Assembly: GCF_011400295.1 (NCBI RefSeq)
Contig: NZ_CP049859.1
Span: 868,001 to 932,000 of the forward strand
Origin: Erysipelothrix sp. HDW6A
GTDB taxonomy: Bacteria > Bacillota_I > Bacilli_A > Erysipelotrichales > Erysipelotrichaceae
Reading direction: 5' to 3'
DNA length: 64,000 nt
The notes under the pieces: generated by a model
Seen by the model: the letters and a program-made list of their open reading frames with translations, nothing else
Told to the model about the DNA's origin: nothing
Database searches by the model: none
Shown: piece by piece, positions 43,916 to 49,315 of the stretch
Numbering within the stretch: position 1 is the first letter of the stretch
Layout of the letters: every line of letters begins with the position of its first letter
Translations under genes and position numbers: made by a program

Positions 43916-43940
43916 TTTTTGTTAAACTAGATAAAATTAA

Positions 43941-43970
43941 AGAAGAAACTCAATGTTTCTTCTTTTTTTA
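43941..43970 (+). terminator. terminator of the str operon
   Basis: AGAAGAAAC / GTTTCTTCT (9 bp, loop TCAAT) then a long T-run. Confidence 0.92.
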
Positions 43971-44067
43971 TAATTTCGTTCAATTTTGATTTTTATGACT
44001 TCTAAGTGAACAAAAAATAGATACAATTGCACATATATATGATATACTTCACTGAGTGGAGGCGCTT

Positions 44068-45048
44068 ATGAAAAAATTGTATATGGTTTTAGTTGTTATA
44101 GCTATAGCGCTAGTCTTTGTGCTTAGACAACAAGAAAGTGACACAATTATTATATACTCAAGTGCGGAGCAGTTTCGTAACGATGAGTTACAAAGTCAAT
44201 TAAATAAAAAATTCCCAGAGTTAAATGTTCGTGTAATGTATACACCTACAGCTAAAGCAGCTGCAAAGCTCTATGTTGAAGGGAAAGATTCTGATGCTGA
44301 TATCGTATTAGCATTAGAGACAAGTTATATGAACAAAATTATAGATTCACTTGCAGATATTGAAGGATATAGTAAAGCTGATTATCTCCCTGGTTTCGGA
44401 CCAGAAACACATAACAATAAATTTGTTACATGGGAACGTCAAGCAGCATCGATTGCAATTAATCCTGATGTGCTAGCTAAGTATAATTTACCCGCTCCAA
44501 CTAGTTATGAGGATTTACTTGATCCAATGTATAAAAACTTGGTAGCAATGCCTGATCCTAAATCTAGTGGTACAGGATATATGTTCTATAAGAATGTAGT
44601 AAATATGCTCGGTGATGAAGCAGCTTTAGAATATTTTGATAAACTAGCGAAGAACGTTAAACAATTTACAGAATCTGGATCAGGTCCAGTGAAGCTTCTT
44701 AACCAAGGTGAAGTAGCAGTAGGGATTGCTTTAACATTTCAAACAGTTAAAGAAATTAATAAAGGAATGCATCTTGAAGTTATATTCTCAGAGTGGGGCT
44801 CACCTTACTCATTAACAGGTACAGGTATTGTGAGTGGCCATGAGTCTAACCCAGATGTTATCCGTGTCTACGATTTCTTAGTGAATGATTTTATTTATTA
44901 CGATAAAGAAAATTTTTCTCCAGAAAGAATTATGAAAAATCAGAAGAATCTTATTGATAATTATCCTACTGATTTTGATTATGCTGATATGACAGGTATT
45001 GATAGCATTCAAGAAAAGGAACGACTACTAAGTATGTGGAAGTTCTAA
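44068..45048 (+). CDS. ABC transporter substrate-binding protein (AfuA/PhnS-like), copy 1
   Basis: A 326-residue extracytoplasmic binding protein of the COG1840-type group that includes ferric iron, 2-aminoethylphosphonate and thiamine binders. The N-terminal hydrophobic segment (about residues 3-18) has no lipobox cysteine, so it looks like a membrane anchor. The mature part starts SDTIIIYSSAEQFRNDELQ and has PTAKAAAKL, DADIVLAL and MPDPKSSGTGY. The paired Tyr of iron binders is not obvious, which argues against iron. The start is ATG 44068 after GTGGAGGC. It heads a five-gene operon with a close paralogue next. Confidence 0.88.
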   Translation: MKKLYMVLVVIAIALVFVLRQQESDTIIIYSSAEQFRNDELQSQLNKKFPELNVRVMYTPTAKAAAKLYVEGKDSDADIVLALETSYMNKIIDSLADIEGYSKADYLPGFGPETHNNKFVTWERQAASIAINPDVLAKYNLPAPTSYEDLLDPMYKNLVAMPDPKSSGTGYMFYKNVVNMLGDEAALEYFDKLAKNVKQFTESGSGPVKLLNQGEVAVGIALTFQTVKEINKGMHLEVIFSEWGSPYSLTGTGIVSGHESNPDVIRVYDFLVNDFIYYDKENFSPERIMKNQKNLIDNYPTDFDYADMTGIDSIQEKERLLSMWKF

Positions 45049-45070
45049 TCTAAGTATTATTGAGGGTATT

Positions 45071-46051
45071 ATGAAAAAATTATATATAGCATTAACCGCA
45101 ATTGCGATTCTTTTGTTATTTGTAGTTAATAAACAAGAGAGTGATACTATTATTATATATTCTAGTGCTGAACAGTTTAGAAATGATGAACTCCAATTGC
45201 AAGTCAACAAGAAATTTCCAGATTTAAAAGTGAGAGTCATGTATACGCCGACTGCTAAAGCTGCTGCTAAAGTAATGATAGAGGGCGAGAATACTGATGC
45301 TGATATCATTCATGCACTAGAAATTGGGTATATCAATAACCTAAAACATTTATTAGGTGATGTTTCCGAGCTTACAAGAATCGATTACTTAAAAGAGTTT
45401 AATCCAAAAAACTTTGACAACAATTTTGTAATTTGGGAACGTTATGCGGGTTCGTTTACAGTGAACCGCGATATTTTGGATAAACACAATCTTCCTGTTC
45501 CTACTTCTTATGAAGATTTACTTGATCCTATGTATAAGAACTTAATTGCAATGCCTGATCCTAAATCTAGTGGTACCGGCTTCTTCTATTATAAGAACCT
45601 AGTAAACGTTATGGGAGAACAGGCAGCCCTAGAATACTTCGATAAACTGTCTGTAAATATCAAACAGTTTACAGAGTCAGGTTCGGGTCCGGTTAAACTA
45701 CTGAACCAGGGTGAAGTTGCAGTTGGACTGGCGATGACATTTCAGTCGGTTGGGGAAATCAATAAAGGAATGCCTTTAGAGATATACTTTCCTCAAGAAG
45801 GGTCACCTTACTCGATGTCAGGTACAGGGATTGTTAAGAAATCTGAACACAAAAAAGATGTAAGACGTGTATTTGACTTCTTAGTGAATGATTTTATTAA
45901 TTATGACAAAGAACATTTCTCACCAGAAATGATAATGAAAAACCAAATAATAACAATGGATAATTATCCAACTGATGTTGAATACGCGGATATGACGGGT
46001 ATCGAAGACATGGCAGAAAAAGAGAGGTTGCTAAGTTTATGGAAGTTCTAA
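45071..46051 (+). CDS. ABC transporter substrate-binding protein (AfuA/PhnS-like), copy 2
   Basis: A 326-residue paralogue of the preceding gene. The two share long identical blocks such as QFRNDEL, VRVMYTPTAKAAAK, PTSYEDLLDPMYKNL, MPDPKSSGTG, KQFTESGSGPVKLLNQGEVAVG and the C-terminal EKERLLS-WKF. They differ most around residues 85-125. It also has an N-terminal anchor without a lipobox. Two binding proteins for one permease suggest two related ligands or different affinities. TTGAGGGT precedes the ATG, and its end overlaps the ATPase gene by 13 bp. Confidence 0.88.
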   Translation: MKKLYIALTAIAILLLFVVNKQESDTIIIYSSAEQFRNDELQLQVNKKFPDLKVRVMYTPTAKAAAKVMIEGENTDADIIHALEIGYINNLKHLLGDVSELTRIDYLKEFNPKNFDNNFVIWERYAGSFTVNRDILDKHNLPVPTSYEDLLDPMYKNLIAMPDPKSSGTGFFYYKNLVNVMGEQAALEYFDKLSVNIKQFTESGSGPVKLLNQGEVAVGLAMTFQSVGEINKGMPLEIYFPQEGSPYSMSGTGIVKKSEHKKDVRRVFDFLVNDFINYDKEHFSPEMIMKNQIITMDNYPTDVEYADMTGIEDMAEKERLLSLWKF

Positions 46052-46821
46052 ATCAAAAATCAAAATTAATTGTAGATGGATTATTTAAAGAGTATGACGG
46101 AAAGACAGTCTTGGATCATATTTCTTTTGACGTAAAAGAGGGAGAATTCCTTAGTGTCCTAGGACCATCAGGTTGTGGTAAAACAACCTTACTGAGAATC
46201 TTAATTGGCCTTGAAAGCCAAAACTCTGGAACAATTGTGATGGAAGACAAAGATATTAGTAATCTAGCGCCTCATGATCGTGGGATGGGTATTGTATTTC
46301 AAAACTATGCATTGTTCCCTAATATGACGGTATTGGAGAACGTTACCTATGCTTTAAAGATTCGTCCAGATATGAAGGGTCAAGCAGATGAGATTGCACG
46401 TAGAACATTAGATCTCATTGGTATGACTGATCAACTCAATAAGAAACCAAGTCAGCTATCAGGTGGACAACAACAACGTGTTGCGATTGCTCGTACACTT
46501 GCGCTCAATCCTAACGTGATTCTCTTGGATGAGCCTATTTCTGCACTTGATGTTACAAACCGTGAAATTATGAAGCGTGAGTTGAAGTCTATTCAAAAGA
46601 AATTTAATGCTACGATGATATTCATTACTCACGAACAAGAAGAAGCGTTCTATCTATCAGATCGTATTATGGTTATGAGTAATGGTAAAATCGAACAACT
46701 TGATACACCACAAAATATTTATCAAAACCCAGCAAGTGATTATATTAAAGAATTCGTTATTGACCATCTAGATCAAAAATATGAGTCATTAGTAAAGAGT
46801 ACAGGTAGAAACCATGAATAA
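46039..46821 (+). CDS. ABC transporter ATPase (PotA/PhnT-like)
   Basis: The 260-residue ATP-binding subunit of an importer. Walker A GPSGCGKTT starts near residue 40; signature LSGGQQQR, Walker B VILLDEPISALD and the switch His in FITHEQEE follow. There is only a short tail after the ATPase core (to DHLDQKYESL), without the TOBE regulatory domain of many PotA/FbpC proteins. It overlaps both neighbours by a few bases. Confidence 0.92.
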   Translation: MEVLNQKSKLIVDGLFKEYDGKTVLDHISFDVKEGEFLSVLGPSGCGKTTLLRILIGLESQNSGTIVMEDKDISNLAPHDRGMGIVFQNYALFPNMTVLENVTYALKIRPDMKGQADEIARRTLDLIGMTDQLNKKPSQLSGGQQQRVAIARTLALNPNVILLDEPISALDVTNREIMKRELKSIQKKFNATMIFITHEQEEAFYLSDRIMVMSNGKIEQLDTPQNIYQNPASDYIKEFVIDHLDQKYESLVKSTGRNHE

Positions 46822-48400
46822 TCGCTCAATAAAAGCCGCTAAGGTTCTTGTTGGGGTATTCCTCTTAGTTTCTGTAATCTTTCCGTTGATTACTGTTTTC
46901 TTAAATATCAACGGTGCAGATATCGCTGAAATATTTAGAACCGATCAATTTAGAACATATTTATGGAACTCACTTACAACTACAATAGCAGCAACACTAC
47001 TATCGGTTGGGTTGGCGTTCACCTTAGCATGGCTAATAAATCGTACAAAAATTCGTTATAAATCATTATTCTCAGTTTTATTTACATTACCAATGTTAAT
47101 ACCTTCTATCTCACACGGGATGGGACTTGTATTATTATTTGGTGATAATGGACTGATTACAAATATGTTGGGAATCAATATTGGACTCTATGGACCAACA
47201 GGTATCATCATTGGATCCATATTATACTCTTTCCCAGTTGCATTCCTAATGCTTACAGATATCTTCCGTTATGAAGATTACACAACTTATGAATCGGCAG
47301 AGGTATTAGGTGTTTCAAAATTAAAGCAATTTTGGGTTATCACACTACCTAACATGAAGATGCCATTAATCTCTTCACTCTTTGCAGTATTTACCATGAT
47401 CTTCACAGACTACGGGGTTCCTCTTAGTGTAGGTGGGAAAACAATGACTCTATCGGTATACATGTACCGTGAAGTTATTGGTTTACTTAACTTTTCTAAA
47501 GGAGCAATTATAGGGGCTATTCTTTTAATCCCAGCAGTTATTGCATTTATTATAGATTTAAAGAATGAAGGCGAGCATAGTGAGTCAACAGTTGCCAAGC
47601 CATTCGATATCAAAGTAAATAAAAAACGAGATATCATCGCTTATGTATTCTGTATTGTTACATTAGTGCTGACTATCTTACCACTCATTGCATTTATTAT
47701 CTTATCCTTTGTGAAGAAGTATCCAATTGATATGTCATTCTCATTGGTGAATGTTCAAAATGCATTTGGCTTAGGTGTTGGTTCATATTTACTTAACTCA
47801 ATCACAATAGCCTTACTAACAGCTCTTGTAGGAATAGCAGTTAGTTTCTTTACAGCCTTCCTTACAGCTAGAAGTAAAAAGACATTCTCAAACTTAGCAC
47901 TGCACTTAATCGCAATGCTATCACTAGCAATCCCAGGTATCGTACTTGGTCTTGGTTATGTACTATTCTTCAACGGTACAGCGATCTACGGTACAATCAC
48001 AATCTTGGTACTTGTAAACATTGTTCACTTCTTTGCATCACCATATCTCCTAGCTTATAACTCATTGACACAATTCAATGAATCATTAGAAGATGTATCG
48101 ATGACACTTGGAATTAGTGGATGGCATATGTTAAAGGATGTCTACATTCCATGTACACAAGATACTATTATTGAGATGTTCTCGTATATGTTTGTTAATG
48201 CGATGGTTACAATTTCCGCTGTATCCTTCCTCGCTAACTTACGAAACATGCCAATATCTTTATTAATACCTCAGTTTGATTCTCAATCATTGATTGAAGC
48301 AACAGCCTTTATTTCGGTATTAATATTAGTAAGTAATATTGTAGTAAAAGGACTTGTTTATTTAACAAAACGATATTTTGTGAAAAGAGAGGTAGCTTAG
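46814..48400 (+). CDS. ABC transporter permease, two fused membrane domains (PhnU/PhnV-like)
   Basis: A 528-residue permease with two binding-protein-dependent transport domains fused in tandem (about residues 1-255 and 270-528). Each half has about six helices and an EAA-like loop (YESAEVLGVSKLKQFWVITLPNM and LEDVSMTLGISGWHMLKDVYIP). Fused permeases of this kind serve iron, phosphonate and similar importers. A hydrophilic linker (KNEGEHSESTVAKPFDIK) separates the halves. The next gene begins at the base after its stop codon. Confidence 0.92.
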   Translation: MNNRSIKAAKVLVGVFLLVSVIFPLITVFLNINGADIAEIFRTDQFRTYLWNSLTTTIAATLLSVGLAFTLAWLINRTKIRYKSLFSVLFTLPMLIPSISHGMGLVLLFGDNGLITNMLGINIGLYGPTGIIIGSILYSFPVAFLMLTDIFRYEDYTTYESAEVLGVSKLKQFWVITLPNMKMPLISSLFAVFTMIFTDYGVPLSVGGKTMTLSVYMYREVIGLLNFSKGAIIGAILLIPAVIAFIIDLKNEGEHSESTVAKPFDIKVNKKRDIIAYVFCIVTLVLTILPLIAFIILSFVKKYPIDMSFSLVNVQNAFGLGVGSYLLNSITIALLTALVGIAVSFFTAFLTARSKKTFSNLALHLIAMLSLAIPGIVLGLGYVLFFNGTAIYGTITILVLVNIVHFFASPYLLAYNSLTQFNESLEDVSMTLGISGWHMLKDVYIPCTQDTIIEMFSYMFVNAMVTISAVSFLANLRNMPISLLIPQFDSQSLIEATAFISVLILVSNIVVKGLVYLTKRYFVKREVA

Positions 48401-49294
48401 ATGATTACAAAAAATCAATTTGAAGTATTAGTAACACTTGATCAAGAGAAAGATTCTCCAGTTACACAACGTCGCCTGGGAGAACTCTTAGAGTTGTCCG
48501 TAGGTACAGTTAATAAAACATTAGCGGAATTGGAAGAACTTGGACTTATTGATAATAAGTATGTTGTTAGTGAAGAAGGCTATGCAGCACTTGAACCATA
48601 CCGTGTTAAGAAAGCAGTTATTCTTGCAGCTGGATTTGGATCGCGATTAGTTCCAGTTACACTTAATACACCAAAACCTTTAGTACGCGTAAAAGGTAAA
48701 CGTATTATAGATGGACTTCTCGATGCATTGCTTGCAGTTGGTATCGATGACATTACATTAGTACGTGGTTATCTAAAAGAAGAGTTTGATGTTCTACTTA
48801 ATAAATATCCAATGATTAAGTTCATTGATAATGATATCTATAATGAAGCAAACAATATCTCTTCTGCAGTTCTTGTACGTGATAAGATTGCGAATGCATA
48901 TGTAGCGGAGTCTGATTTATTAGTTTACAATCCAAAGATTATCCGTAAGTATGAATACGAAACAAACTATCTATCGAAGAAAGTTGACGTTACAGATGAC
49001 TGGTGCTTCAAAACGAAGAGTGGTTATATTACTGAAGTTCTTATTGGCGGACGTGATGTACATCAAATGTATGGAATCTCATATTGGTCGAAAGAAGATG
49101 CTGATAAATTTGAGAAGCATTCATTAGAAGTCTTTGAAAGCCCAGGAGGGAAAGAAAAGTTCTGGGATGAAGTTGCACTTACAAACTTTAAGAAAGACTA
49201 TAAAATAGCAATCCGACCATGCCAAGAGGGCGATATTATAGAGATTGATACTTTCAATGAATTAAAACAAATAGATGAAACATATAATGTGTAA
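48401..49294 (+). CDS. winged-helix / sugar-phosphate-type cytidylyltransferase fusion (LicC/PntC-like)
   Basis: A 297-residue two-domain protein. Residues 1-66 form a MarR-like winged helix (TQRRLGELLELSVGTVNKTL). Residues 70-297 form a nucleotidyltransferase with KAVILAAGFGSRLVP (71-85) and the Lys of TPKPLVRVKGK (92). This resembles LicC (phosphocholine cytidylyltransferase) and PntC (2-aminoethylphosphonate cytidylyltransferase). It directly abuts the importer permease, so the imported compound is probably its substrate and is activated with CTP for transfer to a surface polymer. The winged helix could regulate the operon or help the enzyme fold. Choline-phosphate is the main alternative to a phosphonate. 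Confidence 0.85.
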   Translation: MITKNQFEVLVTLDQEKDSPVTQRRLGELLELSVGTVNKTLAELEELGLIDNKYVVSEEGYAALEPYRVKKAVILAAGFGSRLVPVTLNTPKPLVRVKGKRIIDGLLDALLAVGIDDITLVRGYLKEEFDVLLNKYPMIKFIDNDIYNEANNISSAVLVRDKIANAYVAESDLLVYNPKIIRKYEYETNYLSKKVDVTDDWCFKTKSGYITEVLIGGRDVHQMYGISYWSKEDADKFEKHSLEVFESPGGKEKFWDEVALTNFKKDYKIAIRPCQEGDIIEIDTFNELKQIDETYNV

Positions 49295-49315
49295 ACTGCC
49301 TAAGGGCAGTTTTTC
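49293..49315 (+). terminator. terminator of the transporter/cytidylyltransferase operon
   Basis: AACTGCC-TAAG-GGCAGTT followed by TTTT. Confidence 0.88.

Follow-up and report, generated by a model that had tools for sequence, protein, structure and literature searches.

BirA and NadR carry a winged helix or helix-turn-helix fused to a ligand-activating enzyme, with a long inverted operator before transport and biosynthesis genes, and in the sialic-acid salvage of Haemophilus a ready-made group is scavenged, activated as a cytidine monophosphate (CMP) ester and put on the lipooligosaccharide. In the cytidylyltransferase PntC of Treponema denticola (Tde-PntC), residues E104 and E196 are placed so as to bond the amine of 2-aminoethylphosphonate (AEP), where LicC has the smaller D105 and D192; the authors present E196 as something observed in Tde-PntC and do not define the family by it, and their paper nowhere uses the words salvage, uptake or transport (PMC6697681). 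The binding proteins AepX, AepS and PhnS, which share the Pfam family SBP_bac_6, belong to AEP transporters serving mineralisation in other bacteria (PMC8316502). Here we describe a five-gene operon in a 64,000-nt stretch of Erysipelothrix sp. HDW6A (contig NZ_CP049859.1, positions 868,001 to 932,000; this whole stretch is called the window), in which the genes of a PhnSTU2-like importer run directly into that of a winged-helix cytidylyltransferase. We regard it as probable that the operon serves to salvage a surface headgroup, likeliest AEP, with transfer by LicD and with control of the operon by the enzyme itself.

The operon lies between tuf and rpsJ (S10 operon) in a genome of 2.04 Mb on a single contig, and its five + strand open reading frames (ORFs) follow one another at spacings of +22, -13, -8 and 0 nt. 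The features, in window coordinates, are as follows.

43939-43965, + strand: terminator-like stem-loop after tuf, the upstream boundary
43978-44011, no strand: candidate operator GTTCA-N24-TGAAC, about 57 bp 5' of the ATG of binding protein 1 (SBP1)
44068-45048, + strand: SBP1, SBP_bac_6, phnS2-like, with an N-terminal membrane segment and without a lipobox Cys
45071-46051, + strand: binding protein 2 (SBP2), SBP_bac_6, phnS2-like, 69% identical to SBP1
46039-46821, + strand: ATP-binding cassette (ABC) ATPase, PhnT2-like
46814-48400, + strand: fused double-domain permease, PhnU2-like
48401-49294, + strand: whole cytidylyltransferase gene, winged helix plus NTP_transferase
48401-48592, + strand: winged-helix (MarR-type) domain of the enzyme, recognition helix SVGTVN intact
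48596-49291, + strand: LicC/PntC-type cytidylyltransferase domain; the E170 codon is 48908-48910
49293-49312, + strand: terminator-like stem-loop after the enzyme gene

A first-pass annotation, made from the letters of the window alone, had read this order as two binding proteins, an ATPase, a fused permease and a winged-helix LicC/PntC-type enzyme, and the ORFs and profile matches bear it out; the packing with overlaps or zero gap that it described applies to the later junctions but not to the binding-protein pair, which is separated by 22 nt. Since a terminator-like stem-loop stands on either side, the operon looks like a transcription unit of its own; its conservation across genera and classes shows that the arrangement did not arise by chance. 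In two other Erysipelothrix species (L068 in G137, L071 in G130), an importer-enzyme operon lies beside the same S10-operon ribosomal-protein genes; the winged helix of the enzyme at these two loci is degenerate, and other copies in the same genomes are intact.

All importer components found their best NCBIfam matches among the AEP transporters: phnS2 for the two binding proteins (1e-52 and 7e-59), PhnT2 for the ATPase (3e-98) and PhnU2 for the permease (4e-122). The binding proteins, with 224 of 326 residues identical, are a local duplication, most relatives having a single binding protein. Their nearest solved relatives are 8x1a, the sugar-phosphate-binding AfuA (4r72) and the pyridoxal-phosphate-binding P5PA (6wce). 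The motif SSGT, which holds the phosphate-binding Ser-Gly-Thr of AfuA (S148-G149-T150) and of P5PA, was invariant among the binding proteins, as was the Ser-Gly following it, but the AfuA residues His205-Asp206, essential ligands of the sugar (PMC4546632), were not kept, their place being taken by an invariant Phe224-Gln225 (SBP2 numbering). Such residues would fit a small organophosphorus ligand other than a hexose phosphate. Iron, thiamine and polyamine were rejected as ligands because the corresponding families scored at least 40 orders of magnitude below phnS2. The predicted structure of a binding protein was poor (predicted local distance difference test score, pLDDT, 44.8) and was not used. 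Both window binding proteins are without a lipobox Cys and look anchored by the N-terminal membrane segment, whereas their counterparts at L040 and L135 have a lipobox Cys.

The enzyme, in which Pfam recognizes a MarR-type winged helix and an NTP_transferase domain, has LicC (3e-31; profile 2e-44) and T. denticola PntC (profile 9e-16) as its closest solved sequences. A structure prediction against LicC and PntC, proposed in the first-pass annotation, yielded a model with pLDDT 93.7 that has the LicC fold (Z 31.4, root-mean-square deviation 1.7 over 223 residues) and matches PntC with Z 25.2, the sugar nucleotidyltransferases scoring about 22 and below; fold and sequence matches thus place the enzyme in the LicC/PntC group, not in the sugar-phosphate group. 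The nucleotidyltransferase motif GXG(T/S)R-X4-8-PK is present as G78-F-G80-S-R82-X8-P91-K92 and is invariant or nearly so across the aligned relatives.

The substrate pocket was compared in an alignment of the catalytic domains of every locus fetched. At the position of LicC D105 and Tde-PntC E104, the window enzyme has E170, the PntC-type Glu and not the LicC-type Asp. Glu occupies this position in all importer-linked enzymes (21/21), in the four tightly linked to Ppm (L045, L048, L051, L070) and in four of four from genomes with Ppm elsewhere, and Asp occupies it in Streptococcus pneumoniae LicC, in 5/5 enzymes of choline (BCCT) operons and in 3/3 linked to a phosphotransferase system (PTS) or kinase. 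Relatives 52-57% identical to the window enzyme stand beside Ppm, Ppd and AEP transaminase genes at the four tightly linked loci. In a tree in which many inner branches were weakly supported, the BCCT-linked enzymes formed one clade (support 100) outside a mixed set of importer- and Ppm-linked enzymes (support 94). A further locus, L086, was first labelled Ppm-linked and then dropped, since it is flanked by no more than AEPT-like and TagD-like genes and its enzyme falls among the kinase-fused ones.

These observations bear on the alternative that phosphocholine or phosphoethanolamine is imported and that the enzyme is a LicC making cytidine diphosphate (CDP)-choline or CDP-ethanolamine, thus bypassing choline kinase. 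The fold lies nearest to LicC, D256 and the aromatic W201 are LicC-like, E. rhusiopathiae is cited as bearing phosphocholine on its capsule (cited in PMC10434233), and in the capsule cluster of the window genome a LicD gene stands where related species have lic genes. We nevertheless consider this alternative unlikely, given the Glu shared with Ppm-linked enzymes where choline-operon enzymes have Asp, the separate clade of the BCCT-operon enzymes and the enrichment of phosphoenolpyruvate (PEP) mutase in genomes that have the enzyme (see below). Phosphoethanolamine, near AEP in size, is harder to exclude than phosphocholine. The first-pass annotation had named either AEP or a phosphocholine-like molecule as the headgroup; the Glu at the 105 position, the neighbours of the relatives and the tree appear to favour AEP over phosphocholine, short of proof, D256 remaining on the side of LicC. 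Choline kinase LicA and LicB are not in the operon.

Elsewhere in the window genome, next to deoC, L090:9013-10776 encodes a fusion of winged helix, LicC and choline kinase; two metal-site residues of its LicC domain are replaced (D107 to Ser, E216 to Gln), so that probably only the kinase is active. At L046:4604-10929, L049 and L050, an operon combines a kinase-fused LicC, a second LicC (Asp105), a galactitol-type PTS IIB/IIC and a LicA-like kinase, with a LicB-like transporter also in L046 and L050, and is possibly a PTS-fed headgroup pathway. Clusters of a kinase-fused LicC and a second cytidylyltransferase, often with an Amidohydro_3 enzyme, were seen at L112, L113, L114, L116, L072 and L073, the second cytidylyltransferase of L112 and L114 having a fused part of about 890 aa.

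The source of the substrate was surveyed in 148 genomes of the order, 20 with this enzyme type and 128 without, counting the importer as present if its permease was at least 51% identical and PEP mutase if it scored above cut-off. All 12 genomes with the importer have the enzyme, and the importer was found in 0/128 enzyme-free genomes. Among the 20 enzyme genomes, PEP mutase is present in 8, the importer in 12, both in 3 and neither in 3 (G091, G119, G141), and the association with the enzyme gave Fisher p values, uncorrected for ancestry, of 3.5e-6 for PEP mutase and 8.6e-13 for the importer. Because most enzyme genomes hold one or the other, the importer looks like an alternative source of AEP. 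Five fetched Ppm genomes with the enzyme elsewhere have Ppm-Ppd-PhnW operons (families confirmed for G066). PEP mutase was found neither in the window genome nor in any Erysipelothrix genome searched, nor in ten further genomes, including those of other families in which permease and enzyme are joined; these genomes would be salvage-only decorators.

In five genomes (G057, G391, G433, G289, G479), permease and enzyme share one ORF of 830-859 codons. Four of these joined ORFs keep an internal ATG, with a good ribosome site in L108, and may also give two proteins; that of L111 (G479) has no evident internal start. The shared reading frames, the constant company of importer and enzyme and the alternation of importer and PEP mutase support the earlier proposal that the imported compound is the substrate of the enzyme. 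That the importer instead scavenges phosphorus or nitrogen from phosphonates, with the enzyme unrelated to it, is highly improbable: AEP transporters of the same Pfam family do serve mineralisation elsewhere, as cited above, but the importer is strictly tied to the cytidylyltransferase, and in the window genome PhnJ was not found and neither PhnX nor PhnW scored above cut-off, which extends to the genome what had been noted for the operon, namely that it holds no phosphonate-degrading gene. PhnJ was likewise absent from every Erysipelothrix genome searched.

Two observations concern these genes in other genomes. At L118-L122, the PEP mutase of PhnW-Ppd-Ppm operons has a TagD-like cytidylyltransferase domain fused to it, the winged-helix cytidylyltransferase being encoded elsewhere. 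In G095 (L135, L136, L069; C9, about 940192-968779), the permease gene of the importer is interrupted by an element of about 28.6 kb that carries conjugation-like genes and, at its end, a recombinase-like gene.

All 20 enzyme genomes have LicD, against 60/128 of the others; the window genome holds three LicD genes, one of them in the capsule cluster L004. A neighbourhood survey for a linked LicD, suggested in the first-pass annotation, placed LicD in or near importer clusters of several genomes (L108, L111, L115, L135/L069, L133/L067, L047). In L108 it immediately precedes the SBP-ATPase-permease/enzyme genes and is accompanied by a flippase gene; in L115 it precedes them at the distance of one flippase gene; and in L111 it comes immediately after them. 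In G095 (L135/L069) the order is rml genes, LicD, flippase, SBP, ATPase, the split permease and enzyme, and in L047 an SBP and the enzyme are followed by LicD and an epimerase gene. In L133/L067, from E. urinaevulpis, the capsule cluster ends with the importer-enzyme operon, which stands before the same flank genes that follow lic in L078. The window capsule cluster L004 has the same order of fnl-type genes, glycosyltransferase and LicD as L078, without the two kinase-fused LicC genes and LicB of the latter. This comparison suggests that the headgroup supply has been exchanged around a LicD-bearing capsule, and the linkage in several genomes supports a surface glycan as the destination of the imported compound, as had been supposed.

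The inverted sequence GTTCA-N24-26-TGAAC was found upstream of 14/18 importer operons, a number reached in 0/2000 shuffles (maximum 2). Over 1.42 Mb of fetched loci, half-sites spaced by 24, 25 and 26 nt gave 27, 23 and 7 matches, and the other spacings between 10 and 40 gave 0-6. The same site precedes the kinase-fused lic genes, the enzyme gene in the Ppm cluster L070, the PhnW-Ppd-Ppm operons of five enzyme-bearing genomes (L118-L122), FrbH-like genes (L091 in the window genome, and L092) and a distant importer in G091 (L126), and is absent from three Ppm loci (L123-L125) in genomes without the enzyme. Counted by genome, promoter-type sites were present in 30/40 with an intact recognition helix, defined as S-hydrophobic-G-x-[VIT]-[NS], and in 0/14 without (p = 6e-7, uncorrected for ancestry); at least four of the ten intact-helix misses are due to gene-start calls or missing flank (L040, L118, L074/L075, L110). 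The best -10 element lies between the half-sites in 19/35 sites, a geometry typical of repression; the promoter of the window operon itself is not clear. In the whole window genome, 11 sites were counted against 8 for a reversed-pattern control, which is not clearly above it, and the operator claim therefore rests on comparative evidence.

That the site tracks an intact winged helix points to the enzyme also being a regulator, like BirA or NadR. Judged from sequence, it is a candidate enzyme-regulator, with a DNA-binding domain fused to an enzyme and a conserved site 5' of pathway genes, and its winged helix probably binds GTTCA-N24-26-TGAAC and would thereby repress. The several enzyme copies with degenerate helices might suggest instead that the operator belongs to an unrelated, co-distributed regulator and that the winged helix is a structural leftover; this we doubt, in view of the counts with and without an intact helix and of Ppm operons that carry the site in enzyme genomes but lack it in enzyme-free ones. 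Regulation, which the first-pass annotation did not mention, may be the more novel part of the finding. The FrbH-like gene of the window genome, L091:9082-10981 (about 1249581-1251481), encodes a 619-aa protein of FrbH-like layout, an NTP-transferase plus a CobD/HisC-like pyridoxal phosphate enzyme, and has GTTCA-N24-TGAAC and a consensus-like promoter just 5'; the protein may make a CMP-activated amine headgroup by decarboxylation.

In the salvage module that we propose, the binding proteins would catch AEP, most likely the imported ligand, outside the cell, and the PhnT/PhnU-like transporter would bring it in. The PntC/LicC-type enzyme would convert it with cytidine triphosphate to a CMP ester, presumably CMP-AEP, from which a LicD-family transferase would move the headgroup to a glycan, and the winged helix on the promoter site would tie supply to the state of the enzyme, as in BirA and NadR. 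Several points weigh against this proposal. The importer proteins all fall below the curated NCBIfam cut-offs for AEP transporters, reaching about 45-70% of them (179-200 bits against 393 for TIGR03261, 329 against 458 for TIGR03265 and 409 against 593 for TIGR03262); the Fisher tests ignore shared ancestry; and no LicD lies within the window operon, the link here being genome-wide. In the pocket, D256 stands where LicC has D192 and Tde-PntC has E196, the Ppm-linked enzymes of L045, L048 and L070 having Glu there as Tde-PntC does, and W201 retains the LicC aromatic W136, although aromatic residues are also kept by Ari-PntC, according to its authors (PMC6697681). The importer-linked enzymes do not form one clade (8 label changes on the tree), and some related enzymes sit with choline-kinase-like genes. 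The mixed Glu/Asp pair at the 105 and 192 positions, against Glu/Glu in Tde-PntC and Asp/Asp in LicC, together with two diverged binding proteins that could mean two ligands, would also suit another organophosphorus ligand activated likewise, such as hydroxyethylphosphonate, N-methyl-AEP or an aminoalkyl phosphate; we think this quite improbable, as genomes whose Ppm-Ppd-PhnW should make AEP carry the same Glu/Asp pair.

More broadly, we see an even chance that the winged-helix cytidylyltransferases are a family of enzyme-repressors sensing headgroup supply, with one operator uniting phosphonate-biosynthesis, phosphonate-salvage and lic operons in Erysipelotrichales and relatives, and with the enzyme joined to the ABC permease in some lineages, as a single membrane-bound chain of transporter, sensor and enzyme on which a phosphonate decoration made only of scavenged material would rest. 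Counts of phosphonate decoration have so far relied on PEP mutase as the marker. If decoration is also made from imported phosphonate, such counts miss organisms like several Erysipelothrix species and small-genome relatives, and phosphonates would be a resource that host-associated bacteria share. The shared DNA site offers a directly testable regulator for both phosphocholine and phosphonate surface chemistry, in a genus with a related species cited as bearing capsule phosphocholine. In the open-access literature we found no earlier account of an importer-linked PntC or of the GTTCA-N24-26-TGAAC operator; parts of known families are here combined into a salvage branch of phosphonate decoration.

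Compared with known systems, the window enzyme resembles PntC (Rice et al. 2019, PMC6697681) in its LicC-like fold, its nucleotidyltransferase motif, the Glu at the E104 position and relatives in ppm clusters, but it would receive its substrate from an importer, the genome lacking PEP mutase, is fused to a winged helix and has Asp for E196. LicC (1JYK/1JYL) is its best structural and sequence match, with the W136 and D192 positions kept, whereas D105 is replaced by Glu and the window operon is without choline kinase and LicB. Importers of the PhnSTU2/AepSTU type share SBP_bac_6 and gave the best NCBIfam matches for all three parts, the window importer differing in being linked to activation and not to degradation. 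With the organophosphate importers AfuABC and P5PAB it shares the phosphate-site SSGT and the next Ser-Gly, but the sugar-binding His205-Asp206 of AfuA has become Phe-Gln in binding proteins of the window type. Salvage of sialic acid for lipooligosaccharide decoration in Haemophilus (PMC6509186) concerns a carbohydrate and not a phosphonate, and its proteins are unrelated. Finally, the window enzyme differs from BirA and NadR in enzyme class and pathway and, in some relatives, in being joined to a membrane permease.

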